A stretch of DNA of 64,000 bases from NCBI GenBank assembly GCA_028554795.2, contig CM068826.1, positions 102,488,346-102,552,345 of the forward strand, written 5' to 3'. This document shows positions 41,944 to 63,799 of this stretch, piece after piece (within the stretch, counting starts at the first letter, position 1; the number at the start of each line of letters is the position of its first letter). A program made the translations under genes and the position numbers. Below the pieces are notes generated by a model. That model ran no database searches. It was not told where the DNA came from and was given only the letters and a program-made list of their open reading frames with translations. The DNA is from Sinohyriopsis cumingii (lineage: Eukaryota > Mollusca > Bivalvia > Unionida > Unionidae).

Positions 41944-43379
41944 GTCTCCAAATTATGCATGGTGTTACATACAAGTAAGCTTCTTTTCTTTTAATCATTT
42001 GTACAAGTCATTGCCCTCCTATCGGCATAGTTTTAATGGATTTTCATTTTTCAGTTAAGCTGATACTCACGATTTTATACAAATTTTCCTGTATTACTAG
42101 CATTTTAGTTCATTCAGCCTTGTACACGATATGTTTGAACTTACCATCGTGCGTACGTGATTGCAATCACTGCAATAACAATAGCAGTAACTGGCAGCGT
42201 TATGGAAATGATTATTATTGTGATCCTGCCTCTAAATCCAAGATCCTTATTTATAGTATTGTTGGTTATGTTTGGTGTATCTGAAATAAACAAATGTATA
42301 TGCTACAAAAGTAGATTAGATGGATAATGCACTTATCATGAAACATTCATACATGATACTATTTATTCGTCTTTGGTACCAGCACTATTTGCAATGAGAC
42401 ACTCCACGCATGACAAAACTTACCACATCATTTTGAAAATATTAAAACATATATCTACTTACATAATTAGCTCCCTAAGTTTGTTCATAATGTTAATATC
42501 TCAATATAGAAATTAGTTTTTAAATTCTAAATAATTGTAACTTCATTTGTAAAGAGCATTTTGTTAAGTCATGCTCCCAATAAGTATGACTTCAGTCAAG
42601 GTGTCAATTCCTTTTTTTCTATTTGGGCTATAGCTTTTCAAAGCATAGTAAATTGCTACATGAAATTTCTGGTACTTACTGATGTACATTAAGGTGTATG
42701 ACAATTTAGGCAGAACTAGTTATAGTACTGAAACGATTCACACGACATTTCATAAATACTTCGGATATTAAATTCGAGAAATCAAGTACCAAAAAAAATA
42801 TGTACAGAAAACGTAAGTTTGTTCTATAAGATAGTAAGAATATAGAGAACGCAAGAAACTCTGCTTTCTCATTTGTTTGACTGATTTTCTAACTTAATAT
42901 GTACATACCTAATATGATACACTCCTTAATGGACTTTGCTCCAAGATCTGTCTCTGATGTTCCATTCAAACATTCAGAACATGGTATTTCACCAGACCTA
43001 TTTTGATAAGTCCCCACACCGCATGGAATGCAAAGACCTGGTCCAGATTCAGTCTTGTAACTTCCAAGAGGACAGTCTATACATCTCGATTGGCCAGGAA
43101 GATTCTGATACATGCCTGGCGCGCAAGCTATACATTCATTTGCTCCCTCAGATGACTGGTAAGTTCCGTCGGGACATGGATCGCATTTGGTTTGGCCTGT
43201 TTGGTTTTGGAACGTACCCACGCTACAACTAATGCATGAAGTTTGGCCTGATTGATTTTGATACGTTCCAACAATACATGGGAGACATGAAGTCTGACCA
43301 TTAATTGGTTGATAGCTACCCAGTGGACATTTATGGCAAGTTGAGCTTTGATTTAATCTGTAAGTTCCAGCATTACACT
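25211..43379 (-). CDS. Host receptor-type tyrosine-phosphatase-like gene with dead, truncated phosphatase domain (11 exons)
   Basis: I assembled this gene from splice signals and reading phase. The minus-strand exons are 43379-42909, 42280-42145, 41659-41586, 35807-35674, 33806-33740, 33554-33511, 31198-31079, 27948-27826, 26911-26757, 26456-26318 and 25315-25211. Every junction has AG/GT and the phases match throughout. The product has ephrin-receptor-like (GCC2/GCC3) cysteine repeats outside the cell, one membrane span, a short tyrosine-bearing tail, and then the later part of a protein-tyrosine-phosphatase fold. In that domain the active-site loop is ruined: ILIH is followed by Thr where the catalytic Cys belongs, and there are four extra residues before the Arg. 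The first part of the domain is not found. It is therefore likely a non-catalytic receptor or scaffold. Upstream exons (signal peptide, remaining ectodomain) are not found. Confidence 0.75.
26318..26456 (-). CDS. Exon: remnant of the phosphatase active-site loop
   Basis: It encodes GCNTEQAGRLYNVFSVLHHL, then DETEFFDLELSLKIARIQRV. This matches the position of HCxxxxxRTG and the following helix. The spacing to the Arg is wrong for catalysis and the HC pair is lost. Confidence 0.8.
26757..26911 (-). CDS. Exon: WPD-loop region, degenerate
   Basis: It encodes FEARKTVIYVTVNLGLDERG, then IPANIQKLVITYVRSVRS, and ends ILIHT. The WPD catalytic aspartate motif is absent: NLGLDERGIP replaces the usual WPDHGVP. 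Two bases remain and combine with the first base of the next exon. Confidence 0.75.
27826..27948 (-). CDS. Exon: phosphatase-fold beta segment
   Basis: Forty-one codons in phase 0 beginning RGTCLGETTN. The stretch FRVQVSNTKVSSGMRFLQLQ fits the two beta strands before the WPD loop of the PTP fold. A second frame is open across the exon but does not fit the splice phases. Confidence 0.75.
30832..30933. repeat. (TA)n then (GTAT)n microsatellite in intron
   Basis: TA repeat to about 30909, then GTAT units. Confidence 0.95.
31079..31198 (-). CDS. Exon: phosphatase-fold segment with EFW motif
   Basis: Forty codons in phase 0. LCLVTTLPVLSTEFWSCVIE followed by NN and IIALGDNEE corresponds to the segment of the PTP fold usually written FIVTQxPLxxTxxDFWRM...VMLT. 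It is closer to membrane-distal (D2-type) pseudo-domains than to active D1 domains. Confidence 0.8.
31531..32120. repeat. 30-bp minisatellite, about 19.5 copies
   Basis: The unit is AATGATAGGGAGACAAATAT plus TATACATACC with small variants, strictly 30 bp except one 28-bp unit at 31981. Because 30 is divisible by 3 and the unit lacks stops, several frames on both strands stay open for 60-200 codons. These are artefacts, not genes. It lies in an intron of the receptor gene. Confidence 0.95.
32150..33281. mobile_element. 1.13-kb MITE, complete copy
   Basis: The ends are a 19-bp inverted repeat, TTATTATATGCTCATTTTT at 32150 and its complement ending at 33281. The interior has no convincing gene. 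A second copy begins at 46231 and is interrupted by the Polinton. The element sits between the 30-bp minisatellite and three decayed units of the same minisatellite (33420-33509), so it probably inserted into the array. Confidence 0.85.
33284..33413. mobile_element. 130-bp hairpin element with about 37-bp inverted repeats
   Basis: A segment beginning AGGTTACTGCATTTCTATGG (about 33285-33322) is repeated in inverted orientation at about 33372-33412 with few mismatches. The loop is about 50 bp. It directly abuts the end of the 1.13-kb MITE. It may be a foldback MITE or the outer end of a nested insertion. Confidence 0.65.
33420..33509. repeat. Three decayed units of the 30-bp minisatellite
   Basis: Units beginning GACGATAGGGAGACAAATAT, GGCCATAGGAAGACAAATAG and GACGATAAGAAGACAAGTAT are clearly related to the array at 31531-32120. 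The last ends next to an exon boundary (33511). Confidence 0.8.
33511..33554 (-). CDS. Exon: short acidic segment
   Basis: A 44-nt exon encodes an acidic helix-like stretch (AETEEVEEAIISIHS) with a strong GTGAGT donor. That donor lies at the edge of three decayed 30-bp minisatellite units. Confidence 0.65.
33740..33806 (-). CDS. Exon: cytoplasmic tail with GPYENT tyrosine
   Basis: A 67-nt exon encodes KFTSRTRREFVSGPYENTRL followed by IS. The YENT context resembles an SH2-binding phosphotyrosine site, which is an inference. Acceptor CACAG, donor GTAAAT. Confidence 0.75.
35262..35450 (+). mobile_element. Decayed tRNA-derived SINE (opposite orientation to the one at 40.4 kb)
   Basis: A degenerate A box (GGTCGAGTTGTCTAAA) and B-box-like GGGCTCGATC are followed by TGTGAGAAATCTTGCCAGTT and GATGGTTCTTTTCCC. 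These match, in the same order, the body of the SINE at 40370-40614 read on its own strand. It is about 190 bp and clearly an older copy of the same family. Confidence 0.65.
35674..35807 (-). CDS. Exon: cytoplasmic tail, juxtamembrane region
   Basis: The exon encodes 44 residues beginning DIGLEYTSKERNEY and is phase-compatible with both neighbours. The tyrosine-rich charged composition suits a receptor tail. I do not recognise a domain here. Confidence 0.75.
36091..36145 (+). CDS. Candidate first exon with signal peptide
   Basis: ATG at 36091 begins MTFVLNLLSLICMPPLFA, a classic short secretory signal. It is followed at once by a GTAAG donor (36146). It could be exon 1 of the + strand gene whose later exons are at 37405-38254, but the phase (one leftover base) needs a further exon in between. 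This is weakly supported. Confidence 0.3.
37405..37587 (+). CDS. Candidate internal exon of a small + strand gene
   Basis: The exon is bounded by a good acceptor (CTCTCACTTTCAG) and a GTAAGC donor. It encodes about 60 residues starting MKPSFTKPPRTDITEIQSIK and ending IGIPGGYPK across the junction. Its two leftover bases fit exactly with the next exon. It lies in an intron of the minus-strand receptor gene. The product is unknown. Confidence 0.5.
38050..38254 (+). CDS. Candidate last exon of the same + strand gene
   Basis: The acceptor is TTGTTGCCGCAG. The exon reads IERNISCPVIMHINLCKWTD, then PKGTAANPTAFTIEQNSLFR and so on to a TAG at 38252. Its phase matches the 37405-37587 exon. The even amino-acid composition and lack of stops in AT-rich DNA argue for a real protein, but I recognise no family. 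Confidence 0.5.
38255..40369. other. AT-rich intronic DNA
   Basis: It contains loosely repetitive TTCATTCATT/GTGCATT-rich DNA (38.4-38.9 kb) and a (GA)n run at 39353-39393. No gene is visible. Confidence 0.5.
39353..39393. repeat. (GA)n microsatellite
   Basis: About 40 bp of GA repeat. Confidence 0.95.
40370..40614 (-). mobile_element. tRNA-derived SINE
   Basis: On the minus strand from 40614 there is a tRNA-Leu/Ser-like head: GGCCCCGAGTGGCCGAGTGG with an A box, and a B box GGTTCGAGTC near 40540. A body follows, then a tail ending GGCATTAAACCCC and (CAA)n at 40370. The structure and the long non-tRNA body match tRNA-derived SINEs common in molluscs. It is well preserved. Confidence 0.85.
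41586..41659 (-). CDS. Exon: juxtamembrane tail
   Basis: A 74-nt exon continues the cytoplasmic tail, with tyrosines in the contexts KTYEST and HYSTLE that could be phosphorylated. Phase matches both neighbours. Confidence 0.8.
41862..41936. repeat. (TA)n microsatellite in intron
   Basis: About 75 bp of TA repeat. Confidence 0.95.
42145..42280 (-). CDS. Exon: transmembrane segment
   Basis: The exon encodes a short Asn/Thr-rich linker with NIT and NNT glycosylation sites, then about 24 hydrophobic residues (ITIIIISITLPV and AIVIAVIAIT) ending in Tyr-Ala-Arg. This marks a single-pass membrane span with a basic stop on the inner side. The acceptor is TTTCAG and the donor GTAAGT. Confidence 0.85.
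42909..43379 (-). CDS. Exon: ephrin-receptor-like cysteine repeats
   Basis: The 471-nt exon encodes about 156 residues with repeated CxxCxxGTYQ-type modules (for example CPLGSYQP, CIVGTYQN, CSVGTFQN, CPDGTYQS). These form the four-cysteine GCC2/GCC3 pattern of ephrin-receptor-like domains in extracellular proteins. There are several N-glycosylation sites (NQS, NQT, NRS). It starts after TTTCAG and ends before GTATGT, leaving one base that joins in phase to the next exon. Confidence 0.85.
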
Positions 43380-45553
43380 CTGAAATAATCAAGTATGGAT
43401 CTATCTGTCAATTAACAATTTTACTCCAGAGATATAATGCAAATTACCTGTGAATATAATTTAAGACTTTGCTGGGGTATTTTAAATTCGATGATGACAT
43501 TTGGAGACAAAATTGATAGTGTACTAATGAATATGAAACCGCTCTTATTAATGGCATAGTTCCATTGTGGTAAAATTCGTTTTAAGAACTTAAAGTAAGC
43601 TTCCTTTTTACTGGATATTTGTTGTTTCCCTGCCTAAAAGTCATCTACTTTGCTTCTCGTGGATGCATATTCAATAGTCCTATTTATAATTTGAATACAA
43701 TGTTCGTTGCTTTGCTTGCTCACCGATAACTGTATATATTGATAATTGTTATTGTTTTATGCATTGTAATCCAACAGGGGCGTTTCGGGGGAGGGGCGAA
43801 ATGTTTGGTCCCAACCACCCACCCACACAAATGATACCGAAACAATTGGAACGCATCCTATAGTATCTTTTCTTTACAGTTATATGCTTAAATCATGCAC
43901 TGGACAGGTATGAAATGCACGAGCTTTCAGGGGTTTTTCCCCCCAGCACACACTGTGGGTCCCGTACCACAGACCCATCTCCTACTTGTTTATGCTCCAC
44001 CACAATTCCCATAGATATTTCAGGATTCGCCACTGTTCTACGTTATCAATATTATTACGTAGCATTGCCTAGGTGATAATTATATAAATGAAAAATATGA
44101 GGAGTGCGTAATTGATCCACTTAAATCATATTAATCTACGATGACATCAGATACTTAATCTATTCAGATAAAACTCATTTGTGGTTTTTGTCCGTTCTGC
44201 CAGAACACTGTTACCTGCATGATCTCAGCTGCATCAAACTATTATTGATGTATGATAAGAATTGACTTCACTAAATACGTTTTCTCTTATAAAGACCATA
44301 CACGACTGACTTCATTGAATAATTACTCTATTATTTATGATTTATTATGATGTCAATACATTGCGCTTTAGTGACAAAAATGAGGTCGCTATGAACCAAT
44401 CAAAACCAACAGTTGGAATCACAAACCTTAACTAATTGATGATACGATGTTATTAGTAGCCAATCAAATTTTAGGTGGATGAAATAGTTTCGCTCTGTGT
44501 CATTTAGACGTCTTTGTTGACATTAGTCACCTATCACTCAAGACACGTGCGTTTTGCTTTGATTTTGGATTCTAATCGTGCTGAAGTAAACATTAACATA
44601 AACTGTTCAGCAATTTTCTTTTTCTCCCCGAACCGTTTAACAATATGACATTACTGTGTCATGTTCGTAGAAATACCTACTGTGTTTATTACAGACTCAC
44701 TAGTTATTAATTCGTACAGATTTATGGACATTACAGTGAAGCATTTCATAGTTTGACATAATTCAGCCTGTTAATTTTATGATAGCTACTGAGGATCGCA
44801 GAAGTAGAAGGATTGTTAAATCCGATACCACACCTACTCTACCGTATCGGAATACCATTATGACCTCTCTGTCTGAAAACTGGAGCAGACAAAATATATA
44901 TGAGAGAAGAAAGTATACAACTTGGGATTGCGCACGGCAAAAGATCCATACGATCTAGACCACTTTCTTTATAGAGTCAGTATCCTGTGCCAAACAACGA
45001 CAGAATTACTGACACGAGTTGCCGTGGAAATCAGGTGATCGAGTGTGCACAAGAGTAAGACTCTGCAACGTTCGCTATTTTATTTATCTGGGCTTCAGAC
45101 AGACTGTCCCTGCATTGTTGTCGACAGTTAATATTTCGGAAATAGTCGAGACTTTGGTGGGACTGTGCCAGATGGATATTGTGGGGGCTCTATCTTTAAC
45201 ACCCCTCGTAAGACAAGAGCCTGTACAACATTAAACTGCCTGGGCTTGTTTATGGAGACTTCGAGCAGATATTATAATAAACAGCTGTAGTTTCAACCGA
45301 TATCAGCGATAGTTTGCTCTTGCTCAGAGTTCTTTTACTTCACATCCGACTGTTGTCGGGAATGCTGTCAGGAACAAGAGCTCCGAAACCAGCGTAATTG
45401 ATCGAAACAATTATCTGTGAGCAGCCATTGCATTTAAAGGTCTACAGAACAGTAGATGACAGAGAGAATACAATATTAATCCACTTGCAATATCGATAGC
45501 ACATTGTCCCCGCCCCTCCCCATAAAATATTAATAATAATAATACTAAAAATG

Positions 45554-46230: not shown

Positions 46231-47137
46231 TTATTATATGCTCATTTTTTCCCCTTTAGCTTTACATTGTCAGAATCGTTCAATATTCCCCGATACTGAA
46301 CGCGCGCGACAATACACATATAGCATTCACGTGAACGAAGGAACTACTTTCTATTGTAAACAAACAATGACGCAAACACCAGCACTTTTGATTTGTAAAC
46401 AAATCATATACACTCGCGTAAGAGGCTCTTTACGTTGTGGTTATTTAAATTTGTTTCTGAATGAACTAAAACATGTTTCGTGGACTGCAAAAAAAAAACT
46501 CAGCTGTTTTGGTACATTCCGCGTTGATACAATGTTACGGATTTAGGCTAGCTACATTATATAAAAGACGGACGATTATGTCCTTACAAATAGCATACAA
46601 GTGACAAGGCATATACTGTCTTCTTTATCTTGTGATAAGAATGGCAAAATAAACTATACTTACAGTTTTACATCCTGAATTTCCTCAAAATGTTTTGTCT
46701 TAATTCTGCAAATCCGAATTGCATGAGCCATGTCATAGGTTTTCAATCTGGATTACACATTTCGAAAGTGTGCTGTAATTTCGATGATAAGTGCAATTGC
46801 ATCATCCTTACTGCACGCAAAATGAAATACACATTAAATTCCATAGCATCTTTTTCATAATTGCAGTTGAAAGACTTCATATTTTTCCCACATTATGATT
46901 TCAAACATTCAATGACAGAAACAGAAACACATTTGCAGACGTAAACAAGCTTCTCCCGCGCCACTCCGCTGTATTTCATGTATAATTTGCACAGATAAAT
47001 CCAGTCCAAAATCACAAACTTTCATCGAATCGAAACAAAATACCAAAATATATTCACTCCAGATCAAATGGAAAAGTCGTTGCAATGCGCATTCATTCAC
47101 AATATGACTGCAAATTTCAATTTTAACTAGACACGCC
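46231..47137. mobile_element. 1.13-kb MITE, second copy, interrupted by the Polinton
   Basis: It starts with the same terminal repeat TTATTATATGCTCATTTTT as the copy at 32150 and follows it closely for about 900 bp to ACTAGACACGCC. There the similarity stops abruptly. In the complete copy the same point (33065) continues ATTTTCTTTCGAAATTTCTG. Here it switches to the Polinton end, so the last 0.2 kb of this MITE should lie beyond the right end of the window. Confidence 0.85.
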
Positions 47138-47345
47138 AGTAGTGAAGGGGGTTAGATTAGCCTCAATGGAAAAAAGCATTACAGAACCCCTTGGGTCAGA
47201 TTAGCCTCAATGGAAATTTAACATGGAGAAAAATCGTGGGTCAGATTAGCCTCAATGGAAATTAACATGGAGAAAAAATCGTGGGTCAGATTAGCCTCAA
47301 TGGAAATTTAACATGGGAATAAATCGTGGGTCACTTTACCTACAA
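47138..47345. repeat. Left end of the Polinton with four subterminal direct repeats
   Basis: After the terminal AGTAGTGAAGGGGG there are four copies of a roughly 50-bp unit, each with TAGATTAGCCTCAATGG or CAGATTAGCCTCAATGG. Three carry an AACATGG...AAATCGTGGG tail. A degenerate fifth begins at 47330. This is most likely part of the terminal inverted repeat, whose partner lies outside the window. Subterminal repeats may bind integrase or replication proteins; that is an inference. Confidence 0.7.
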
Positions 47346-47420
47346 GAGAAATGGAATATGGGATTTTTGTTTTTTTAAAAATTAAAAAATAAAAAAAGGG
47401 GTAGGCAATGGAAAGGCTAT

Positions 47421-47458
47421 CTCTTTTCGAGAAATATGGCTGGCCCTGAAAAGGGCCT
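47421..47458 (-). terminator. Histone-type 3' end signal 1 (stem-loop plus purine element)
   Basis: The minus strand reads AAAGGCCCTTTTCAGGGCC with a perfect 6-bp stem and TTTC loop (stem-loop 47457-47442), then AGCCA. A purine-rich CGAAAAGAGA follows about 10-15 nt later. This fits the metazoan replication-dependent histone consensus (GGYYCTTTTCAGRRCC, ACCCA, then a U7-pairing purine element). It lies about 20 nt after the stop of the gene at 47477. Confidence 0.85.
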
Positions 47459-47476
47459 TTGGGTTTTCTTCTGCTT

Positions 47477-47854
47477 CTAATTTCTTCTTTTCCTCCACCA
47501 ACTTCTTATTTTATCTCCAACACTCTTTCTCTTCTTTTTTTTCTCCTCCTCTTCTTTCTTCTCTTCCTCCTCTTCTTTCTTCTTCTTCTCATTTTCTTCT
47601 TCTTTTTCAATTTTTTCGTTCCATGTTCTTATTCTTATCTTTTCCTCTTCATCCTCCTTCTCCTCCTTTATTTCCTTCATCACACCACTAATTTTGTCCT
47701 TTGCTTTTCTTAAGTTGTTAATTTCCATCTTTACACGATGGGGACTATAGGAATAATGGTCTTCAACGAGTCTTATTAACATCTGTTCCATTATTCCTAA
47801 GTTGTCTAAAACGTCTTGCAAGGTTTGTATTTTGTCCATTTGGTTTGACGCCAT
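47477..47854 (-). CDS. Left-end small gene A, charged coiled-coil protein
   Basis: The start is the ATG at 47854 (MASNQMDK), about 45 nt after a TATA-like box; the longer open frame upstream runs through the promoter and is not used. The 125-residue product has a helical N-terminal half (LQDVLDNLGIMEQMLIRLVE). A long Glu/Lys low-complexity coiled coil follows, then a basic amphipathic end (KIRSWWRKRRN). No known family is recognised. It shares its layout with genes B and C: promoter module, short 5' leader, short charged helical protein, histone-type 3' end. Function unknown; an early or regulatory role is only a guess. Confidence 0.75.
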   Translation of the reverse strand: MASNQMDKIQTLQDVLDNLGIMEQMLIRLVEDHYSYSPHRVKMEINNLRKAKDKISGVMKEIKEEKEDEEEKIRIRTWNEKIEKEEENEKKKKEEEEEKKEEEEKKKKRKSVGDKIRSWWRKRRN

Positions 47855-47900
47855 CTTCTTTTTATTCTTTGCAGAATGGTTTGAACAACTAACACTGTGG

Positions 47901-48011
47901 GTTCTTATAGTGAAAGCGCGGACGTGAAGGAAAACATCCCCTAAAAACATAAAATTCATCTTACCTAGATCATGACCGAACATCGCGCGTACGTGAAGGA
48001 AAACATCCCCC
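47901..48011 (-). promoter_or_regulatory. Promoter module of gene A (two copies of the shared motif plus TATA)
   Basis: On the minus strand a distal copy (48011-47984) and a proximal copy (47941-47912) of GATGTTTTCCTTCACGT(C/A)C plus GCGC are separated by a 40-bp spacer containing ATCTAGGTAAGAT. The proximal copy is followed at once by CTATAAGAAC (47910-47901). The same arrangement precedes gene B. Confidence 0.75.
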
Positions 48012-48236
48012 TACTTTTCTCATTTCATATAATATAACCCTAACTATACTCTCTACATACGCTAAGAAACCCATAATCTACTATTCACACTAAGTTACTT
48101 CAGCATTTACAAACACACAAACTTACTTCAGCATTTCCAAACACAAACACACAAACACATACACTTCCACTATTAATAAAGAGTTAGTGTTTATATTCAC
48201 ACTACTCTACCTACACACATTGGCAAATCTATAGTT

Positions 48237-48278
48237 ATTTCTTTTCTAGAGTATTGGGGTAGCCCTGAAAAGGGCTGT
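48237..48278 (-). terminator. Histone-type 3' end signal 2
   Basis: The minus strand reads ACAGCCCTTTTCAGGGCTAC with a perfect stem (48276-48261) and TTTC loop, then ACCCC and, 12 nt on, TAGAAAAGAAA. It lies about 27 nt after the stop of gene B. The surrounding 80 bp are nearly identical to signal 3. Confidence 0.88.
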
Positions 48279-48302
48279 TTTTTTAACTCCAGATGCACCT
48301 AT

Positions 48303-48611
48303 CTAATGGTTGCACCTTCCATGCCTGGCACCGCACACGCATCTTTGACTCCAGTCTCTTTTTACTTTTTGTCTTGAGAGTGCAGAGGCGGGATGATTCG
48401 CTTCAGCACCCCAATCCTCTGTCTCGGGAATATTGTAAGACATCCTCTCTTCTCTTTTCTTTTCCTCTTCTTCCCTCTCTCTTCTCTCCTCCTCTTCCTT
48501 CTTTATTCTTGCTTCTTCTACGATAGCCTCCGCTGATAGTTCGTTTACTATGCGCCTGGCATATTCCAGGTGCATCTGGAGTTCTAACAGTTTCACTATT
48601 CTGCTATTCAT
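48303..48611 (-). CDS. Left-end small gene B, charged coiled-coil protein
   Basis: The first ATG after the TATA box is at 48611 (MNSRIVKLLELQ); the longer frame begins with TTG. The product is about 102 residues. It has a helical N-terminus (LLELQMHLEYARRIVNEL), an Arg/Glu/Lys coil (KKEEEERREREEEEKKREER), then a tail with CVCGARHGRCNH that might bind metal. It is similar in size and layout to gene A and followed by its own histone-type signal. Function unknown. Confidence 0.75.
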   Translation of the reverse strand: MNSRIVKLLELQMHLEYARRIVNELSAEAIVEEARIKKEEEERREREEEEKKREERMSYNIPETEDWGAEANHPASALSRQKVKRDWSQRCVCGARHGRCNH

Positions 48612-48660
48612 TCTTGTGTTGATCAATCAACAAGGGTAGCTAGACTGCCCAGCGAGTTTC

Positions 48661-48770
48661 AATTTATACTGAAAGCGCGGACGTGATGGAAAACATCCCC
48701 CTAAAAACATAAAATGGATCTTACCTAGATCATGACCCAAAACAACGCGCGGACCTAAAAGAAACACTCA
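48661..48770 (-). promoter_or_regulatory. Promoter module of gene B
   Basis: The proximal copy (48701-48670) differs from that of gene A by few bases. The spacer with ATCTAGGTAAGAT is conserved, the distal copy (about 48770-48744) is decayed, and a TATAAATT box lies at 48668-48661. Confidence 0.75.
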
Positions 48771-49036
48771 CTCACTTTTTATGCTACCCATCACTATTTT
48801 AAATTTTTTTTATAAATCACTTCAATAGACTATCCACATACGCAAAGCAATCCAATTTAACCCTAAATATACACCTCAAACACCAAAAAAAACATCATTT
48901 TAATCTACTATCCATACCAACTTACTTAAGCACTTACTAACACAAACACACAAACACATACCCTCAAAATTTTTTTAAAAAGAGTTAGTCTTTATTTTCA
49001 CACTACTCTACCTACACACATTGGCAAATTGATCGT

Positions 49037-49079
49037 TATTTCTTTTCTAGAGTATTGGGGTAGCCCTGAAAAGGGCTGT
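49037..49079 (-). terminator. Histone-type 3' end signal 3
   Basis: The stem-loop (49077-49062) has the same sequence as signal 2, followed by ACCCC and TAGAAAAGAAA. It lies about 33 nt after the stop of gene C. Confidence 0.88.
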
Positions 49080-49109: not shown

Positions 49110-49466
49110 TTAGTTTCTAAGAATGCGATGTCCTCTGAGGATAGACTTTCTGGCGATAGGTCTGCTTCTTCGGAAAGAGAAGAAGAACTCTTTGGTGTCG
49201 ATACGACAATCGACAAAGCCTCTGTCAGCTTCAGGTTGCTGCTGTTGTTGTTGTTGCTGCTGTTGCTGCTGTCTCTGAAGTCTGTACTTCTCTGTCCATT
49301 CTTCTTTCTCCCTGTTCATTTCTTCTCTGAAGAGCTCTTCGATCAGGTCTTCAGTGATTTTTAACATTCTCACATTCTCTATTTCTTCTGGCTTCGGTAT
49401 CAGACTGTGTCTGACCCTATGCAAATTCACGTAGGCTTCGTTGAGCTTAGCTAGTTTGGAGCACAT
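49110..49466 (-). CDS. Left-end small gene C, polyglutamine coiled-coil protein
   Basis: The first ATG is 49466 (MCSKLAKLNEAYVNLHRV). About 118 residues are helical and charged (LIEELFREEMNREKEEWTEK), with a run of glutamines made of CAG/CAA codons near 49240-49275. After the run a second frame (SLSEEADLSPESLSSEDIAF) looks at least as protein-like, so repeat slippage may have shifted the tail. That second frame would translate straight through the stem-loop, which argues against it ending this mRNA. Function unknown. Confidence 0.7.
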   Translation of the reverse strand: MCSKLAKLNEAYVNLHRVRHSLIPKPEEIENVRMLKITEDLIEELFREEMNREKEEWTEKYRLQRQQQQQQQQQQQQPEADRGFVDCRIDTKEFFFSFRRSRPIARKSILRGHRILRN

Positions 49467-49517: not shown

Positions 49518-49560
49518 TTCTTAAAGTCAAAGCGCGGACGTGAAGGAAAACATCCCCCAC
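49518..49560 (-). promoter_or_regulatory. Promoter module of gene C
   Basis: One copy of the shared motif (49557-49529, reading GGGGGATGTTTTCCTTCACG, then TCCGCGCTTTGA) is followed by the TATA-like ACTTTAAGAAC (49527-49517). I see no distal copy. Confidence 0.7.
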
Positions 49561-49791
49561 ACGGTTTTTCGAGCCTCAACGTTCATGAGAGGGATAGTAA
49601 GAAATGAAAGAGCATCAATCCAACATTCTTATAGCTAAACAAAAGACAAAAGCATTTTTTCAAAACACAACATTTTTTATTCAAAAATCACTTAACACTA
49701 AACAACAACTCTAACATTTTTAACAATAATCCAACAATATAACATCAAACAATTTTTTTCAAATCACAAACATTTTTTCTCATTTTACAAC
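49561..49791 (-). terminator. 3' region of the structural block with AATAAA
   Basis: AT-rich, non-coding. AATAAA on the minus strand at 49681-49676 lies about 110 nt past the protease stop and is the likely poly(A) signal. It is an ordinary end, unlike the stem-loops of genes A-C. Confidence 0.6.
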
Positions 49792-50352
49792 CTACTTTAA
49801 ACAGGGCTGACAACGTTGTGAATGAAATTGTGATTTCCACTGTTGGAAATCATTAGGCCATTGATGGACACTACGTTTCCTAGCTTGAGACAAAAGATAA
49901 GCATAATGGTCACAAAACCATCGATCTACTTTCACATCGTTTCTAGCAGAAGAACGAGGATCAAAATGAGTCACTAAATGTTCTAAGGAATAGCCCAGGC
50001 TGCGATGATGCAGAAAATACACACAGTACTGTCCACACACCAAGGAATCTGTGCCTTGTAATTTCACGTTATTGAATCGGGTGGTTTGAGCATTTCTTCT
50101 CATAAAGTCGATGATATCGTCTTCCAAAGGGGGCAATCCGTACGAATCGAAATATTCCACACATCCTTCTTGAGGAAAGTAGACGGCTACCCAGTGGGTT
50201 CCTGGGAGATGACTGTCGTCCGTGTTGATCACGTAAGCTTGATGGTCTTTAGGTTTGCGATGAGGGAGTTCATCTTTAGCACAGACGACAGGATTCCAAG
50301 AAGCCGTATATGAACTGTGGTTCAAAAGGTAATAAAGTTCCCAAGTATCCAT
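49792..50352 (-). CDS. Adenain-like cysteine protease (maturation protease)
   Basis: A C5-type protease that in adenoviruses and Polintons cleaves capsid and core precursors during particle maturation. Numbering from the first in-frame Met of the long frame (50373), the catalytic set is His60 (GTHWVAVYF), Asp76 (EYFDSYG), Gln106 and Cys113 (LQGTDSLVCGQYC). The spacing from Gln to Cys is as in adenain. The likely start is the eighth codon (ATG at 50352, MDTWELYYLL), giving 186 residues, because the upstream part overlaps the neighbouring gene. The frame is intact, with all key residues present. Confidence 0.92.
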   Translation of the reverse strand: MDTWELYYLLNHSSYTASWNPVVCAKDELPHRKPKDHQAYVINTDDSHLPGTHWVAVYFPQEGCVEYFDSYGLPPLEDDIIDFMRRNAQTTRFNNVKLQGTDSLVCGQYCVYFLHHRSLGYSLEHLVTHFDPRSSARNDVKVDRWFCDHYAYLLSQARKRSVHQWPNDFQQWKSQFHSQRCQPCLK

Positions 50353-50369
50353 TTGTGTTGTTTTCTTCT

Positions 50370-50855
50370 TCACAGGTAATAATAAGTCGTCAATTCGATC
50401 CTGACTTTTTGCTTGAAAATGTCTGACGAATAAACGGTTATTCGTTCTGTTTCCTCACTCTGATTCAAGAGAGCTTCGATACGATGGATCTCTTGAGTGG
50501 TTAATGGTGGACAAGAATGTTCACGCAAGTCTTTATACCACTGGTGCAACACGTCTTTGTTCGAGATGAGACTCCAAGCATCGTCCAGATACTCGTCCAA
50601 TTTTTCTTCTTGACTCAACATCAGGCATTTATCGTGTTGAATTTGACTGGGATGATCGTTTTGACATCCATAACAATTTTTCTTGATCAATTCCGTCATT
50701 TTATCGACCAAGTGTTTGGCAAAACAGGAGACTAAATGGGCTTCTTGTTCTGGCCATCTCGATTTCATCATGATCACTTCTTCTTCTTCCACAGTCTCCT
50801 TACATTCCATGTCCAAAGTTTCTCCACTAGGTAAAGAGGGATAACAGTCTTCCAT
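50370..50855 (-). CDS. Conserved Polinton protein with CYGC/DHPSQ motif
   Basis: 161 residues with an acidic N-terminus. The middle carries ELIKKNCYGCQNDHPSQIQH followed by DKCLML. This Cys/His pattern recurs in many animal Polintons next to the protease and capsid genes. No function is established to my knowledge. Cys-x2-Cys with His and Cys downstream could bind zinc. It overlaps the protease frame slightly and starts 5 nt below the capsid stop. Confidence 0.75.
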   Translation of the reverse strand: MEDCYPSLPSGETLDMECKETVEEEEVIMMKSRWPEQEAHLVSCFAKHLVDKMTELIKKNCYGCQNDHPSQIQHDKCLMLSQEEKLDEYLDDAWSLISNKDVLHQWYKDLREHSCPPLTTQEIHRIEALLNQSEETERITVYSSDIFKQKVRIELTTYYYL

Positions 50856-50860
50856 GGCTT

Positions 50861-52174
50861 CTAGTAATCTAGAATGACTTCTCTCAAACTATTGATTTCT
50901 ATGGTATTATCAAATTCGGCATACAGGATGACGTTCACCGTTACATCAGGGTCTCGGTTTGCAAACTGAATTTCCACACGAATTTGGCCGGATTTTATAG
51001 GGTGGAAATGTCCCTCGTCGTTGCCTTGGTCTGGAGTGAAATCGAAAGCCCACAAAGCATAACCTCCTGCGTAATCCTCGTACGTAATGCCGTGACTGGT
51101 GTTGGTTCCTAACTGGCCGGTGGCTTCGTACAGGGACAAGTACGATCTCAAGTAATTCTTCTTCTCAAAGTCAGGTTCGAAAGGTCGGGTACACAAGGTC
51201 TTGCCGTCGCGACTGACTTCGATCTTGGACACGCCAAAGTGTTGAAAGTAGAAAGGATTTTTTTCGACAGCTCCGTTGAAGGCTGTATTCTCGACGATAC
51301 CAACGATTAAACGTTTGGGTAGCTGTCCTTGGAACAGATGATCTTCGATCATGGATCGCTGTCCCTTGGGAATGGTGAACGTTTTCACTTCCACGCGTCG
51401 TATGGGATACTTGGCGGTCGTTCTGCTCAACGTCTGACTGATGTCGTTTCCCACTTTAGGTAACACTTCCACACGGCGTACGTAGAGCCTGGCTTCCTCG
51501 ATGACAGTTTTGCAAACAGTAGTACCTATCAAATGGAAAGCGGCACTGCTACGATTCAGTCTCAGGCGAACATTCACCCCGTTTAACAAATATTTCTCTT
51601 GCAACCACATGTCCAGATGTAAACGATCCATCAGTTCTAAACTTTGTCCGTTTTTGATTTTGTCTCTTCGTTCTACAAATCCGTCATTGTTTGGTGTTTT
51701 GCTTGCATCAGTTTCGAATCTTTCAAACTGGCCTGCTTCGTCAGCTTCCCATAGCACACAGGCATTGAGATGAGTGTTCTTGGCATCTATTCCGTACGTC
51801 AAGAGATTTTCCAGGTACGCTCGATAAGGGTAAGTATCCATGCTGCTGCTGACCAGTTTGTTGTTCAAGTACAAGTCCACTCCGCTAAACAAGGAATGCA
51901 TGAAATTGTTGACGGGAGCTATTACCTCATCGCCATCTAGGGTCGAATTGTCCTCATCGACAACTTTGACTTTCAAGTACAAGTAACTGCTATTCAGATC
52001 GATGTAATCTTCGGGCTGTCCTTTGATTTAAAACTCGATGGGAGCTGAGGCTGTTAATGAGGAGACGGGGTGAAATTCCACCCATTGGGATTCTTGCATC
52101 GTCATCATGGTGGGGGGCATGGCAAACAGATCCAGTTCCGTCTTGGAACAAGCGCAAGATTCTCGGTGCATCAT
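50861..52174 (-). pseudogene. Major capsid protein (double jelly-roll), interrupted by one in-frame stop
   Basis: It matches the animal Polinton capsid family often annotated as F54H12.2-like. The start at 52174 is followed by the conserved N-terminus (ELDLFAMPPT, then EFHPVSSLTASAPIEF) for 48 codons. Then comes a TAA at 52030-52028, after which the same frame runs 388 codons to 50861. The part after the stop has the expected landmarks (SSYLYLKVKV, HSLFSGVDLYLN, YLNGVNVRLRL near the middle). The total would be about 437 residues, a normal family length. The stop falls in a conserved stretch, so only a truncated peptide or an internally started product is expected. Confidence 0.9.
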
Positions 52175-54027: not shown

Positions 54028-55068
54028 CTAACGTACTTTGACTTCTTTGACACGTCGTTTGCCCACTTTACGGGTTCTGCGTTCGAGAATGCTTTCGATG
54101 TCGTACACGTCGTCTTCTTGTTTGGTGACACGTTGTAACTCGGGCAAATAAAACGTTCCTTTGAGTACTTCTCCGTTCATGTCTTCCAATTTATAGACGG
54201 CAGGATGACGGCCATGCACTCGTCCAGTGACGCGAAACAATTCGGTCGTCCAGTTAGGTAAGTAACCTTTGTCGAAAGTGCGTTTGGTTTTGCCAATGCG
54301 CACCCAATCTCCTACGGCCAACATTCCACTTTTCTCGGGGACAGCCCTCGTCGGGGACGTACCGAACAGACGCTCAAACACCAACACTTCGTTCTCGGGA
54401 GTCACGTCTTGCGGGGCACGTCCGATGCCTCGATGGTAAGATTGGTTGTACGCTTGCACCAGGTGCGGTAAGATGTCGATGTACTTCAGAGTGTGGTGAT
54501 GCGTAAAATATTTCCACATGCGTTCTTTCAAAGTGCGTTGAAAACGTTCCACGATGCTGGCTTTGGTTTCGGGATTCTCGGTGGTAAAAAAATGAATGTC
54601 ACGTTTCTTTAATTCTTTTTGGAAAGCTTGGTTCAGAAATTCGGTGCCTTTGTCCGTTTGCCATCGAAGAGGGTGACGACCACTTTGTTTCAACACCCGT
54701 TGTAAGGCTCGCACTAACTCGCTGCTCGATTTGGAAGTCAAGGGCACGACCCAGGCAAATTTGGAAAAGACGTCGATGACACAAAACAAATATTTGTAGC
54801 CACGATTGTAGCTGGCCAAATGAGAGACATCGGCTAAATCGGCTTGCCATTGATGATCGATGCCTTCCACTCGGGTACGACTTCTGGCAAACTTGCGTCG
54901 AATGGGTTTGTGTAAAGTGTAGGTAGCTTGTTCTTGTAACCATCGTTGCACTTGAGGTAAACGGAGACTTTTCAGTCGCGTTTTGGCAGCACGATACAAT
55001 TTTTGAACTCCTGCGTAACCTGCAGGATGCGAGGGATCGTAGTAAATGCTGGCTAAGACTTTTTCCAT
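54028..55068 (-). CDS. Retrovirus-type (rve) integrase
   Basis: It inserts the element's DNA into host chromosomes. The preferred start is ATG 55068 (MEKVLASIYYDPSHPAGYAG); a start at 55101 would overlap the upstream gene. Numbered from 55101, the catalytic triad is Asp88 (WQADLADV), Asp150 (QTDKGTEF) and Glu185 (ASIVERFQRT), a D,D-35-E spacing. The N-terminal helical domain reads HPAGYAGVQKLYRAAK and TYTLHKP. A C-terminal SH3-like domain has WTTELFRVTGR and VLKGTFYLPELQRV. The frame is intact, 346 residues, normal length. It is unusual in being embedded among virion genes on the same strand as PolB. Confidence 0.93.
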   Translation of the reverse strand: MEKVLASIYYDPSHPAGYAGVQKLYRAAKTRLKSLRLPQVQRWLQEQATYTLHKPIRRKFARSRTRVEGIDHQWQADLADVSHLASYNRGYKYLFCVIDVFSKFAWVVPLTSKSSSELVRALQRVLKQSGRHPLRWQTDKGTEFLNQAFQKELKKRDIHFFTTENPETKASIVERFQRTLKERMWKYFTHHHTLKYIDILPHLVQAYNQSYHRGIGRAPQDVTPENEVLVFERLFGTSPTRAVPEKSGMLAVGDWVRIGKTKRTFDKGYLPNWTTELFRVTGRVHGRHPAVYKLEDMNGEVLKGTFYLPELQRVTKQEDDVYDIESILERRTRKVGKRRVKEVKVR

Positions 55069-55085
55069 TTTTTTGTGTTGGTGTG

Positions 55086-55733
55086 TTAATAAGGCACCCA
55101 CTCTTGGAAGAGGCTACTCTTTTTCTCTTGGGGTATTTTCTTGGATTGCAATGCTTTGCGTGTGCGGCCAGCAATAGGTGTTGAAGAGGAGGAGGATGTC
55201 TGAGCGGGGGATATTGGTTCTTGTTTCACTTCTGTCTTCACTTCTGTCTTCACTTTCTTTTTCTCTTGTGAGGAAGAAGGGGTGGTCATCATCTTTTTAA
55301 TCCATCCAATTCTGGAGGTAGGTGGTGTTGTTAACTTGCGTACTTTTTCGGGTGGAGTTTGAAACCCTTCCTCTTCTTCTTCTCCTTTTCCTTTTTCTGT
55401 CTTGGTCACGGGTACTGGTGGTACTGGTACTGGTACTGGTGATGGTGCTGGACTTTTCATCAAGGTCTTAAAATCTTTCAGAGTGGGTAGAGCTGTTTCG
55501 TCTAAAGCTTTCTGGTGAAAGAGTTGTAGTCGTTGCAAGAGTTGACCGTACTTTTGCGATTTTTTTGTTTCGGACAAATCTTGGTGATCCATCAAGGACT
55601 GCAATTCGTGTTGTAACTGGGACATCTCGCTCAAATGGGGATTGGGGGGTAAATGCGGGGTGCGTTGTTCTTGCCACCGATGGTATTCCATCCATCGTTT
55701 GTAAGGCACTAAAGCTAGTTTTCGTCCTTCCAT
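55086..55733 (-). CDS. Conserved Lys/Pro-rich virion-locus protein (VPYKR motif)
   Basis: 215 residues starting MEGRKLALVPYKRWMEY. An N-terminal LVPYxRW/Y motif followed by coiled coil, then a disordered Pro/Ser/Lys-rich middle and an aromatic end (SLFQEWVPY). This is the layout of a common but unnamed Polinton protein found near the integrase. It probably binds another virion component through its ends. Function unknown. A GATAAAAAGG box lies about 45 nt upstream. Confidence 0.65.
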   Translation of the reverse strand: MEGRKLALVPYKRWMEYHRWQEQRTPHLPPNPHLSEMSQLQHELQSLMDHQDLSETKKSQKYGQLLQRLQLFHQKALDETALPTLKDFKTLMKSPAPSPVPVPVPPVPVTKTEKGKGEEEEEGFQTPPEKVRKLTTPPTSRIGWIKKMMTTPSSSQEKKKVKTEVKTEVKQEPISPAQTSSSSSTPIAGRTRKALQSKKIPQEKKSSLFQEWVPY

Positions 55734-57492: not shown

Positions 57493-58236
57493 TTATGGGG
57501 AGTGAAATGAAGTCGAGGACGGAGACGTGTACAGGACAGGCCCTCCGTCTTGGCACCAGTGGTGAAACAAGTGGGTACGAAATCGCAAATCCTCTGGGGT
57601 CGTAGGTTTCAAATCGACGAGTAAATAGGCGTGTGGCGTTTGAGTGGCATCGTCGTACGCCTGAGTCAGCCAAGGCGTTCCTAACTGTTTGGCTAAGACT
57701 TGCACTTGCGATTTATCTCGAGGGCTTTTAAACAAGACCACGTAATGCGCATTGAGACTGATGGTGCGATGGGCTTTACTTTGTTGAAACAAATTTTGGG
57801 TGATGTAAACGACACTGGCATTACGGTGATGCCCTTTGCGCGTGAACCACAATTTAATTTCTTCTTCGTCTTCTCCTAACATGTCGTCGAAAATGACCAA
57901 ATGGGTTTGACGGGAGTCAGAGACGATGCCGTCGTCTTCTTTAGGAATGCCTTCCACAAACACGAAGGAATCACCTTGACTTTCTCGCAAGAGGCTGTAC
58001 GCCGATTGCCACTCTTTGTAACACCACACGATCCGTTGAGGGGGCCGATCGATCAAATGATGTTTATGTTCGATCAAACGTTTGACGAATTCGGTTTTGC
58101 CAGAACCGCTAGGTCCAGCAATGAGCATGTTAAAGGGATGGCGAAGATACAAAGCCTCCCAACTGGCACGATCTAAGTGTTCGTCGATGACTTTGACAGT
58201 GGAGGAAGAGGGAGCAGAGACAGTAGAGGTAGCCAT
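57493..58236 (-). CDS. DNA-packaging ATPase (A32/FtsK-HerA type)
   Basis: It pumps DNA into capsids. The start is ATG 58236 (MATSTVSAPSSSTV), 247 residues; the longer frame passes into the promoter. In the long-frame numbering Walker A is 54-61 (GPSGSGKT), Walker B about 125-131 (HLVIFDD), then VVYITQNLF and a C-terminal AYDDATQTP. All motifs are intact. A TATATAAAC box lies at 58291-58283, immediately after the AATAAA of the upstream unit (58312-58307). The relic at 6580-7088 is a close dead relative. Confidence 0.92.
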   Translation of the reverse strand: MATSTVSAPSSSTVKVIDEHLDRASWEALYLRHPFNMLIAGPSGSGKTEFVKRLIEHKHHLIDRPPQRIVWCYKEWQSAYSLLRESQGDSFVFVEGIPKEDDGIVSDSRQTHLVIFDDMLGEDEEEIKLWFTRKGHHRNASVVYITQNLFQQSKAHRTISLNAHYVVLFKSPRDKSQVQVLAKQLGTPWLTQAYDDATQTPHAYLLVDLKPTTPEDLRFRTHLFHHWCQDGGPVLYTSPSSTSFHSP

Positions 58237-58306
58237 GGTGTGAGAAATGTCACTTGTGACACGAAAAACAAACAAGACAAGAGTTTATATACTTTTTCAG
58301 AACACG

Positions 58307-58312
58307 TTTATT
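58307..58312 (-). terminator. AATAAA poly(A) signal of the unit above the ATPase
   Basis: AATAAA on the minus strand 13 nt past the stop at 58325 and about 15 nt before the ATPase TATA box. Transcription units are packed end to end. Confidence 0.6.
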
Positions 58313-59751: not shown

Positions 59752-59763
59752 AAATAGGTCATA

Positions 59764-61021: not shown

Positions 61022-63799
61022 CTATCGATCTTGCCTAGGGTTCCTTTTTATATACAGACCAATACCGACGTGACCGTACGGTAAGGTGAAATGATTGGGA
61101 AGTCGAACTCGCTTCTGGTACACGATTTGATAGACTTTTTCCAAGGGCCGACTGACGATGTGATGAGTGGGTAAACGTACAATCTTGTTCGGTTGATAGG
61201 TTGTCACTTTAAAGTTTCCATCCTCTCCCGATTGCAAGGCTTCTTTCAATACCCCAAAATTGACCACTCGACTGGTACGATAATTCAGAGTCAGTCCTTT
61301 CACTTTGCACGTCGTGTGCAGTTCTCCTTGTTTGTCACGGTATCCGTAGCCGTAATTTTTGGGACCGCCACTGACGAAACTTGGAATCTTGTCGTCGGGA
61401 TGCTCGTCTGTCCAGGCTCCTAAACGGTCTCCTTCGATGTTAGGGTGATGTTGACTCGGGTGATGGATGTAAATGCAACTGTCCGTGTCAAAGTACAGGA
61501 CGCGTTCTTCTAACAGTTCTAAAGCTTCGTACAATTTTAAGCGAGCATAGGCTGTCACGTAAGCCGCAATGATGACATTTCCAAAAGGGTCGTCTTGTAC
61601 AAAGTCCAGATCTTCTTCGTAATTGACCAAGATTAAATTCTCTCGAACGACGTCCACGTGTTTCATGTATTTGGTTTTGTCGTGAATCATCTGGAAGTAG
61701 CGGGAAGGTTCTGTCAAATATTCCGTCTTGGGTAAACACGGTCGTTGTGCCATTTTACCCCACAAGCAATTTAACATCACTTTGGCAAACGATCGCCTGC
61801 CTTCGTTTTTCTCGATGTGGTCTAAAGTGATGCCTTCTTGTTCGTAGTATTTCTCTTTGAATTTTATTTGGTCTTCGGGAGTGTGACACCAGGAAGGATA
61901 GCCGCTGGCTTCTTGCTTCAGTTTCAAAAAGACATCCACGTAGTCGGCGAAAATGCCTTTATGAGTAGGGTCACCCTTGCGGTATTGTTGTGTCTTGGGA
62001 AAGTGGCAAATTTCGTACACTTCTAACAGTTGGTATCCCATGTCCAGAGCTTTGAACAATTCTACGCTGACCCAGATTCCCGTCAAGGCACGTTCTTCCT
62101 GGGTGTGCTGACAAGGTTGGTCTTGGTTGCACGTTTCGGCACAAGTACGGCACAAGGGAAACATCAGTTTGCCTTGACAATGGTGAGGTAAGACGGGATG
62201 GTATAGGTTCGTGGGAGGCAAAACTTTGCACTTGATCAAGCCTTCGTATTGTCGAATGTTTTTCAGGTCGATGTGTTCGGTCAACAATTGCGGGTGCCCT
62301 ACAGGAAAGCGACAATATTTGCACACGTAGGGATACAACGAACACACGTCCAAGTATTTGATTTCTTCTCCTTTCTCTTCGTCGGCTTGGTACAGCAAAC
62401 AGGTGGCATTGGTCCTTCCTCCGTACAAACTATCCCTCGGGTTCAGCGGGTCCACGAACTGGTAACTTTCCACGAGGCGTTTAAACTCGGGATCGGTTTT
62501 CATACGGTGATCGTACTCGTGTTCCCACATTTCCACCACTTGGTATCCTTCCTGTTCCAACTTCAGGCGCCGCTGACAAGTGTCCTGGTATAAGTCTTCC
62601 ATGGTTCGTTGTAAAAACTGATTTTTAGTTCTACGATCAGGGTAACAGACGGGACATCCGTGAAATAAGCAACCGTTAAACTCGTACACAATCTTGGGGT
62701 TTTCTAAGTCCCAGCCATCGACCGAATACGTTCCAATGGTCTTTTCGCCCCCTCCGTTGCGGGCATGCTGAATCCATTTGTCTTCCTTGTCGCACAAGTA
62801 ATGTAACCAACGTAGGGCTTTGACCGAGTATTGACGTTTGACATAGTGGGTCGTTTGAGGACTGATGACAGCCACGGTGTTTTGAGGCATGAATCGTTGG
62901 CGGTACACTAAGGAACACGCTTTGGCAATGGTGCAAGCTTCTTTCAAAGGATCGACCCCTCCGTGTTCCATGAACAGTTCTCGAAATTTTCCACAGCAAC
63001 GTCGTAAAATGTCCACGTCGGAACGACAATACTTTAACATTTCTTCCTGAAAGTCGAAAGGGTCCGAGGCGTGAGCCTGGTACCAAGCGTAGAAAGCTTC
63101 TCGTTGTTCGGTACGCATGTTGTCGGGGTCGTAATAGTGAGCCTCAGGTAAATGGGGTAGAACAGCGTGTTGATTGGCTTCCGTGTTGAAAAAGTGTGGA
63201 AAGTACCCTTTAGCCATTTCTGTCATTCCAAACGTTTTAGGCATTCGACTCAAAGGCATGGCCAAATAGCTCATCGAATCTTTAAACTGTACTTGTCCCA
63301 CTTGCATGAAAATGATTTTGGCTCCGTTCAAAGTCACTTTAGGACGCTCGGTGCCTTGTTCCGTATAGTACCTCAAAAGAAACTGTCCATCGTATCCGGA
63401 GAAATTGTGAGCCATCACCGTGGCATGACGATGACAATCTCCGTAACGTTCGATGTCCTCTTGGCTCCACGTCTTCTCGACGGGGTCTAAGACCCATTGT
63501 GCAAAATCGGCTAACGTGTTCGGTCCTCGAAAGATTTTTTCACGCCCTCCAGGAATTTTGCTGCAGTGAGGGCAACAACTGAAGATAGGTTCTTGAATAC
63601 ACTTCTCGCACGCTCGATGAGCCACGCAGAAATTAGGAATGTGAATGCCAGTCTCTTGCATGCATTCGAAATCGAAAAAGATGAAATTGCCTTTCTTCTT
63701 GTGACCGTCCTGTTTCTCTGGTGTGGTGACAAATGTGACATTTTTTCTTTCCTGAACATACGTGTGCCTTGGTATTATTGGTACGTATGACTTGTTCAC
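61022..63799 (-). CDS. polB: Protein-primed family B DNA polymerase (main frame)
   Basis: It replicates the element from its ends. About 925 codons carry, in order (numbered from the open-frame edge at 63799, a GTG), Exo I FFDFE (43-45), Exo II NFSGYD (132-137), Exo III YCRSD (257-261), and the Polinton-type FNGCLFHGCPVCYPDR insert (about 375-389). Then come Pol motif A DVCSLYP (484-490), motif B KVMLNCLWG (673-681), motif C DTDS (771-774) and KxKG (832). All catalytic acidic residues are present. No in-frame ATG precedes Exo I; the N-terminal zinc-finger part is in another frame (see next entry), so translation from its own start is doubtful. Confidence 0.95.
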   Translation of the reverse strand: MNKSYVPIIPRHTYVQERKNVTFVTTPEKQDGHKKKGNFIFFDFECMQETGIHIPNFCVAHRACEKCIQEPIFSCCPHCSKIPGGREKIFRGPNTLADFAQWVLDPVEKTWSQEDIERYGDCHRHATVMAHNFSGYDGQFLLRYYTEQGTERPKVTLNGAKIIFMQVGQVQFKDSMSYLAMPLSRMPKTFGMTEMAKGYFPHFFNTEANQHAVLPHLPEAHYYDPDNMRTEQREAFYAWYQAHASDPFDFQEEMLKYCRSDVDILRRCCGKFRELFMEHGGVDPLKEACTIAKACSLVYRQRFMPQNTVAVISPQTTHYVKRQYSVKALRWLHYLCDKEDKWIQHARNGGGEKTIGTYSVDGWDLENPKIVYEFNGCLFHGCPVCYPDRRTKNQFLQRTMEDLYQDTCQRRLKLEQEGYQVVEMWEHEYDHRMKTDPEFKRLVESYQFVDPLNPRDSLYGGRTNATCLLYQADEEKGEEIKYLDVCSLYPYVCKYCRFPVGHPQLLTEHIDLKNIRQYEGLIKCKVLPPTNLYHPVLPHHCQGKLMFPLCRTCAETCNQDQPCQHTQEERALTGIWVSVELFKALDMGYQLLEVYEICHFPKTQQYRKGDPTHKGIFADYVDVFLKLKQEASGYPSWCHTPEDQIKFKEKYYEQEGITLDHIEKNEGRRSFAKVMLNCLWGKMAQRPCLPKTEYLTEPSRYFQMIHDKTKYMKHVDVVRENLILVNYEEDLDFVQDDPFGNVIIAAYVTAYARLKLYEALELLEERVLYFDTDSCIYIHHPSQHHPNIEGDRLGAWTDEHPDDKIPSFVSGGPKNYGYGYRDKQGELHTTCKVKGLTLNYRTSRVVNFGVLKEALQSGEDGNFKVTTYQPNKIVRLPTHHIVSRPLEKVYQIVYQKRVRLPNHFTLPYGHVGIGLYIKRNPRQDR

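Follow-up and report, generated by a model that had tools for sequence, protein, structure and literature searches.

We analysed a 64,000-nucleotide stretch of the genome of the bivalve Sinohyriopsis cumingii (GenBank assembly GCA_028554795.2, contig CM068826.1, positions 102,488,346 to 102,552,345 of the forward strand; hereafter the window), which contains the left end of a Polinton/Maverick element (Adintoviridae in animals), and conclude that the small genes at the ends of this element are very probably expressed in the manner of replication-dependent histone genes. PMC7614891 describes histone 3′ ends as formed by SLBP on a stem-loop, the U7 small nuclear ribonucleoprotein (snRNP) on a downstream element and cleavage by CPSF73 with no poly(A) added, and the level of SLBP as rising before S phase. 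Transcripts of the terminal genes would be handled likewise: SLBP would bind their stem-loop, the U7 snRNP would pair with a purine-rich element downstream of it, and the pre-mRNA would be cut behind the stem without addition of poly(A). By sequence, each left-end gene has a short promoter of the TATA type, which contains a 24-bp element common to host H2B and H1, then a short open reading frame (ORF) and, soon after the stop, a stem-loop and purine element spaced as in the host histone genes. The S-phase, poly(A)-minus expression implied by these signals would mean that S phase is the main time at which these mRNAs are produced and retained, and that the terminal-gene proteins become available when the host has ample replication proteins and nucleotides, with at least two other gene blocks of the element using ordinary AATAAA signals.

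Three genes lie at the left end, all on the minus strand: g1 (47477..47854), g2 (48303..48611) and g3 (49110..49466, counted from its first ATG). A preliminary description of this DNA had placed a stem-loop 20–35 nt past each of their stops, and this was borne out by Rfam RF00032 matches, likewise on the minus strand, that begin 19 nt (g1), 26 nt (g2) and 32 nt (g3) past the stop. The g1 stem-loop reads GGCCCT-TTTC-AGGGCC (47442..47457; 35.6 bits), and those of g2 (48261..48276) and g3 (49062..49077) both read AGCCCT-TTTC-AGGGCT (29.3 bits each); against the family gathering score of 34, g1 falls above (E 1.2e-6, whole window) and g2 and g3 fall below (E 7.6e-5, 18 kb). The claim that all three stems match the histone consensus stood for g1, which fits GGYYCTTTTCAGRRCC exactly, and had to be modified for g2 and g3, which differ at the closing pair (A-T) and carry two mismatches each. 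Allowing up to two mismatches, this consensus has three matches versus 0.23 expected, and three or more were reached in one of 100 shuffles. The purine element (histone downstream element, HDE), read from the minus-strand sequence, is GAAAAGAGAT in g1 (47419..47428) and AGAAAAGAAAT in g2 (48237..48247) and g3 (49038..49048); its GAAAAG begins 13 nt past the stem in g1 and 14 nt past it in g2 and g3, in agreement with the 10–15 nt described earlier. Because the stem-loops of g2 and g3 are both inside a 112-bp direct repeat (94% identical), they are not independent.

The element continues into a neighbouring 8-kb piece (L076), where two right-end genes, gR1 and gR2, lie just outside the window and also have Rfam stem-loops, of 35.6 and 41.2 bits respectively. 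The signals of g1 and gR1 count as one unit because they are located in the terminal inverted repeat (TIR). The signal is thus found in three sequence settings, namely g1/gR1 in the TIR, g2/g3 in the 112-bp duplication and gR2 alone; between settings the first stem pair switches on both sides from G-C to A-T, and the stem is preserved.

The host histone genes are arranged in tandem repeats of approximately 8.3 kb (150 of 662 candidates scored), and one repeat (L083) was used for the comparison. It holds H3, H4, H2B, H2A and H1 in the same direction, each with a stem-loop above the Rfam cut-off (35.0–39.4 bits) at 27–38 nt from the stop. The stem is GGTCCT/AGGACC in H1 and GGCCCT/AGGGCC in the other four. 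GAAAAG starts at +13 in H3, H4 and H2B and at +14 in H2A and H1, in a purine element reading CTAGAAAAGA in four of the five genes and CCCGAAAAGG in H2A. In the window this element reads CTAGAAAAGA for g2 and g3 and CTCGAAAAGA for g1, so that Polinton and host histone signals have in common the stem and the core GAAAAGA at an equal distance (13–14 nt). The earlier reading of these motifs as histone-type signals is supported by the host histone stem, purine core and spacing, and also by a promoter element that the preliminary description had not seen. For another bivalve, Lucina pectinata, a 2018 report (PMC6210712) gives a stem-loop in all histone mRNAs and a purine element in some. The repeat spacing of the S. 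cumingii histone genes is, by eye, of two sizes, approximately 8.267 and 8.292 kb, which occur on different contigs (C531, C561 and others).

The promoter element is 24 bp long, has the form GATGTTTTCC[AT]TCACGTCCGCGCT and lies on the minus strand upstream of g1 (47915..47938, one mismatch to host H2B), g2 (48674..48697, identical to the host H2B promoter) and g3 (49531..49554, one mismatch); a second, weaker copy with three mismatches is at 47984..48007. Upstream of g2 there is also a 21-bp word, TTTCTTTTAGGTCCGCGCGTT (48744..48764, minus strand), which is identical to the host H4 promoter. The A form of the 24-bp element is exact in host H2B, has one mismatch in H1 and has four in H2A, where it is reversed; three shuffles of the window contained no match to it. 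When five Polinton and five histone upstream regions were compared on both strands (50 comparisons, 200 shuffles each), none of the 200 shuffles reached the real score for g1, g2 and g3 versus H2B and H1, or for g2 versus H4; versus H2A the figure was again none for g2 and g3, and two for g1. Among starts reached by tblastn in related copies, the element with up to three mismatches precedes 12/12 g1, 8/8 g2, 1/1 g3 and 10/11 starts of a further gene type, gX. Its position is 84–86 bp before the start in ten of the 12 g1 genes (−75 and −151 in the other two), 86–95 bp in all eight g2 genes, 88 bp in g3 (measured from its first ATG) and 135–209 bp before ten of the 11 gX starts; it was found within approximately 260 bp upstream of none of 49 gR2 and none of 53 gR1 starts. 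TATA-like words, by a loose pattern, precede 12/12 g1, 8/8 g2, 7/11 gX, 42/49 gR2 and 52/53 gR1 starts.

This likeness of the left-end promoters to host histone promoters, as judged from their sequences, is the new part with respect to the preliminary description. The 24-bp element has 24,217 exact matches in the genome (11,961 + 12,256) and none in the reversed control; the first 100 of these places are often grouped in twos or threes approximately 750–880 bp apart, as in g1–g3, and with two to three elements per Polinton the count would therefore correspond to roughly ten thousand left ends. Such a number, far above the likely share of histone genes, could also mean that the element moved from Polintons into histone genes and not the reverse, which we regard as unlikely given its graded versions in three histone genes (zero, one and four mismatches in H2B, H1 and H2A, the last reversed) and given the H4-type word of g2, which fits an older histone control system. 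We think it probable that a Polinton lineage, now present in this genome as perhaps ten thousand left ends, has made complete mimics of histone genes out of the genes at its left end, with H2B/H1- and H4-type promoter boxes at the start and SLBP/U7 signals at the end, and that viral regulators thereby enter the histone expression programme (that of the histone locus body, of S phase or of the histone mRNA stored in eggs). At the level of sequence, mimicry of histone genes extends to both ends of the left-end genes but, in the right-end pair, to the 3′ end alone.

Ordinary polyadenylation signals were assigned to two other gene blocks of the window, as stated in the preliminary description: a minus-strand AATAAA at 49676..49681 past the protease ORF, and another at 58312 past ORF 58325–58699. 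That these blocks reach AATAAA (49681 and 58312) fits a split between terminal and ordinary genes. Two more such words, AATAAA (48996) and ATTAAA (48904), fall in the interval that separates the 3′ signal of g3 from the promoter of g2, and some histone genes have both stem-loop and poly(A) signals. The stem-loop could thus serve SLBP-dependent stability, translation or storage in the egg, with many transcripts polyadenylated further on, as the AATAAA at 48996 past g3 might allow, and with S-phase coupling of minor importance. A few other ends have AATAAA or ATTAAA at up to 74 nt from the stem, most of them in gR2 (8/46, by comparison with 1/12 g1, 0/20 g2, 0/12 gX and 2/53 gR1). However, most ends have no poly(A) signal nearby, and a purine element that is conserved and keeps its distance from the stem suggests cleavage through U7; we hold such a role in stability or storage to be quite improbable.

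An RF00032 search of the whole 2.9-Gb host genome (1138 contigs) gave 589,472 first-look candidates, 75 of which were scored as a sample and not a census. All 75 lie behind Polinton genes, 74 by tblastn (g1, g2, gX, gR1 and gR2) and one (L025) by the tail of its g1 ORF, and none was assigned to a histone gene. The host histone genes (35.0–39.4 bits) were not among these 75, six of which score only 34.5–36.5. Copies of the signal follow genes of six types (g1, g2, g3, gX, gR1 and gR2) on numerous contigs, which is the opposite of the absence from all closely related elements that the preliminary description had named as evidence against its reading.

A further set was drawn up from neighbouring genes located by their protein and not by their own stem-loop, with the window and L076 genes included. 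A recognisable stem-loop was present in 21/21 g2, 27/27 gR2 and 21/21 gR1 ends, with all six pairs intact in 17, 21 and 20 of them respectively and one pair broken in the rest (two in one gR2), and the purine element was present in 20/21 g2, 27/27 gR2 and 19/21 gR1 ends; single ends of g1 and g3 with six pairs and of gX with five were also seen. For g2, with no stem-loop filter and with 20 of 21 ends (the last was too close to the end of its locus), pairs of copies differed on average by 0.056 in the stem-loop, 0.280 in the spacer, 0.035 in the purine element and 0.206 in the coding stretch. The corresponding values were 0.006, 0.104, 0.050 and 0.172 in gR1 (21 ends), where the five bases beside the stem vary (0.194), and 0.049, 0.158, 0.025 and 0.049 in gR2 (27 ends). 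The aligned ends thus indicate that stem-loop and purine element are kept while the spacer between them drifts.

Such similarity could arise if the 3′ signals were relics copied from the host histone cluster, alike through recent amplification and TIR conversion and with no present role; the copies are related, those in the TIR are homogenised, and the gR2 copies are young (synonymous difference, pS, 0.076) with stem-loops as variable as the coding stretch. This is very improbable, as stem-loop and purine element change little in gR1 and g2 despite large synonymous differences (pS 0.45 and 0.44), and blastn reveals no more extended tract of histone sequence in the element. We also considered, and rejected, the capture of an entire histone gene, since blastn of the histone repeat against the element gives, beyond short stretches, only simple-sequence-like or weak matches. 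It is likewise very doubtful that the hairpin works at the DNA level, as a part of the TIR used in replication, packaging or integration, and resembles histone 3′ ends by accident. The outermost stem-loops are indeed found where the 329-bp TIR ends on its inner side, but g2, g3 and gR2 carry theirs outside it, in the sense direction and behind the stop, and neither the purine element at 13–14 nt nor a histone promoter element would be expected.

Apart from one read-through protein, the genome-level evidence is from one genome. Searches with the gR2 protein in other sources gave 20 matches, of which one is 97% identical, 15 are 58–68% identical over 96–100% of the query and four are partial. 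One relative (P0133, 65%) continues through the stop as ...WPISGPPTSLEKRY, which, with the gene known from its protein alone, fits the frame TGG CCC ATT TCA GGG CCA CCC ... GAA AAG AGA. Such a translation accords with a diverged element that also carries both signals, its stem-loop having lost the sixth pair. No relatives of the major capsid protein (MCP) or of gR2 were found in a viral contig collection. One exact stem-loop match there, by eye inside a long ORF of a phage-like contig, was set aside as chance, and a second exact stem-loop pattern occurred in none of these viral contigs. Genome contigs yielded two other Polinton pieces (L077 and L078) with a capsid 42% identical; no Rfam histone stem-loop was found in either, and the terminal genes are apparently not on these contigs. 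Both are filed as bacterial metagenome-assembled genomes (MAGs; endosymbiont of Escarpia laminata, and Breoghania) and are probably animal DNA in bacterial bins.

In most 3′ ends of g1, gX, gR1 and gR2, including L076:1914–1958, the purine element can also pair with the spacer as a second small hairpin (8/12 g1, 12/12 gX, 40/53 gR1 and 35/46 gR2 ends; 0/20 g2 and 0/1 g3). In 46 gR2 ends one pair of this hairpin is C-G in 19, T-A in 14 and T-G in 13, and never C-A, and another pair is without covariation; the alignment gives a hint of covariation in this hairpin.

Several observations weigh against expression of the terminal genes by the histone route. For the machinery, the best host match to the U7 family RF00066 (29.3 bits, E 0.27) is below the cut-off and its 5′ part, by eye, is not complementary to the purine element; a pattern combining an anti-HDE stretch with an Sm site had 23 matches in the genome and 23 in the reversed control; and a search of the host genome for the SLBP domain found nothing at E 0.001, this search being silent in its control as well. 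Seven of the anti-HDE matches were inspected, and three of these resemble Polinton ends in antisense (one according to Rfam, the others by eye). For the signals, the folding energy is modest on its own (z −1.8 to −3.3), g3 retains its downstream AATAAA, the gR2 stem-loop is as variable as the coding stretch (0.049 for both, less than the spacer), and the second hairpin might compete with U7. The genes of the protein-located set come from elements picked for at least one good stem-loop, so that decayed copies are under-sampled. Finally, the divergent promoter of the right end was rejected as a histone promoter, having no significant likeness to those of the host.

That promoter is a common 218-bp region of the divergent pair gR1/gR2 (L076:2569–2786) with TATAAATAA, two CGGATTGG (CCAAT) boxes and TGACGTCA, laid out like a divergent histone pair.

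Among the products of the terminal genes, no histone Pfam match was found for g1, g2 and g3 (E up to 0.01) or for gR1, gR2 and gX (E up to 0.1); g1 encodes a K/E-rich protein of 125 amino acids whose sole Pfam match is below cut-off (TAF4, 18.6 of 33 bits), and the g2 protein (102 amino acids) and the Q-rich g3 protein have none. Ratios of non-synonymous to synonymous differences (pN/pS) of 0.20 in gR1 (44 ORFs), 0.21 in g1 (5), 0.31 in g2 (10), 0.34 in gX (4) and 0.43 in gR2 (27) point to purifying selection on these genes. In the gR2 protein, which also lacks a Pfam match, two stretches are conserved, a basic one and an acidic-aromatic one (NWDFVDFLSSQEFVPEP) reminiscent of an activation domain; we would guess that this protein is a transcription regulator, and, equally as a guess, that the terminal-gene proteins are early or regulatory.

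The terminal genes therefore resemble metazoan replication-dependent histone genes in stem-loop, purine element, spacing and short ORF, and at the left end in the 24-bp promoter element, but differ in that their proteins lack a Pfam histone match and the genes are part of a mobile element. Viruses such as bracoviruses carry host-derived histone genes, but there the coding gene was captured, as opposed to control signals alone on unrelated viral genes here. To our knowledge, the SLBP/U7 pathway is usually regarded as all but exclusive to histone genes, and if the terminal genes are full mimics this would be the first mobile element that we know of to run non-histone genes through it. The preliminary description knew of no precedent in a Polinton or adintovirus, and none is mentioned in the titles and abstract beginnings listed by searches of an open-licence library. 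If this interpretation is correct, the histone promoter element and 3′ end would tie the terminal genes to host DNA replication without a factor of the element's own, the timing of Polinton activity would become directly testable in dividing cells, eggs and embryos, and the finding would help to trace the factor that reads the common 24-bp promoter element.

By its coordinates the Polinton spans 47138 to 67317 (20,180 bp), of which the left 16.9 kb are inside the window. Its TIRs are 329 bp long and identical at 325 of 329 positions; the left TIR (47138..47466) holds the g1 stem-loop and purine element, and the right TIR is at L076:3363–3036. A 6-bp target-site duplication (TSD), CACGCC, read from the flanks, is found at 47132..47137, with its other copy directly after the right TIR, outside the window. 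On the minus strand are encoded a candidate adenovirus-type protease (49792..50373; PF00770, 16.3 bits, below the cut-off of 21.3), the MCP (50861..51982), a retroviral-type integrase (rve; 54028..55101; PF00665, E 2.9e-14), a packaging ATPase (Pox_A32; 57493..58275; PF04665, E 8.1e-8) and the portion of a DNA polymerase B that lies in one ORF (61022..63799; DNA_pol_B_2, PF03175, E 6.7e-43), the Pfam family of which is that of the viral, putatively protein-primed kind. The predicted fold of the MCP (pLDDT 87.8) resembles double-jelly-roll capsid proteins, with matches to those of PBCV-1, iridovirus, Sputnik and mavirus (E 2.5e-11 to 5.4e-8; TM-score 0.44–0.58, by query). Among the MCP relatives listed (120 of 604) the closest are 76–83% identical; the named animal relatives among them are all bivalves (Mercenaria, Saccostrea, Crassostrea and Ostrea; 44–54%), and one relative is catalogued as part of a bacterial MAG. 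The element shares with Polintons/Mavericks its PolB, rve integrase, A32-type ATPase, double-jelly-roll MCP, TIRs and 6-bp TSD, the protease match being below cut-off; it differs in the small terminal genes with histone-type 3′ ends and in the left-end promoters with host histone elements.

The Polinton also contains a gene with a BIR (inhibitor of apoptosis) domain (60245–60742; PF00653, E 4.3e-24) and, at 58998–60219, a near-identical MDTLQENIRALPVELRERIYREL stretch in three adjacent ORFs, a tandem-duplicated gene. Within the TIR there is a 45-bp tandem repeat (47149–47330; repeat families D2 and D6). Similar cysteine-rich repeat ORFs, by eye, flank the Polinton at window positions 42889–43392 and at L076:4312–4902, and the insertion may therefore sit in a duplicated host stretch.

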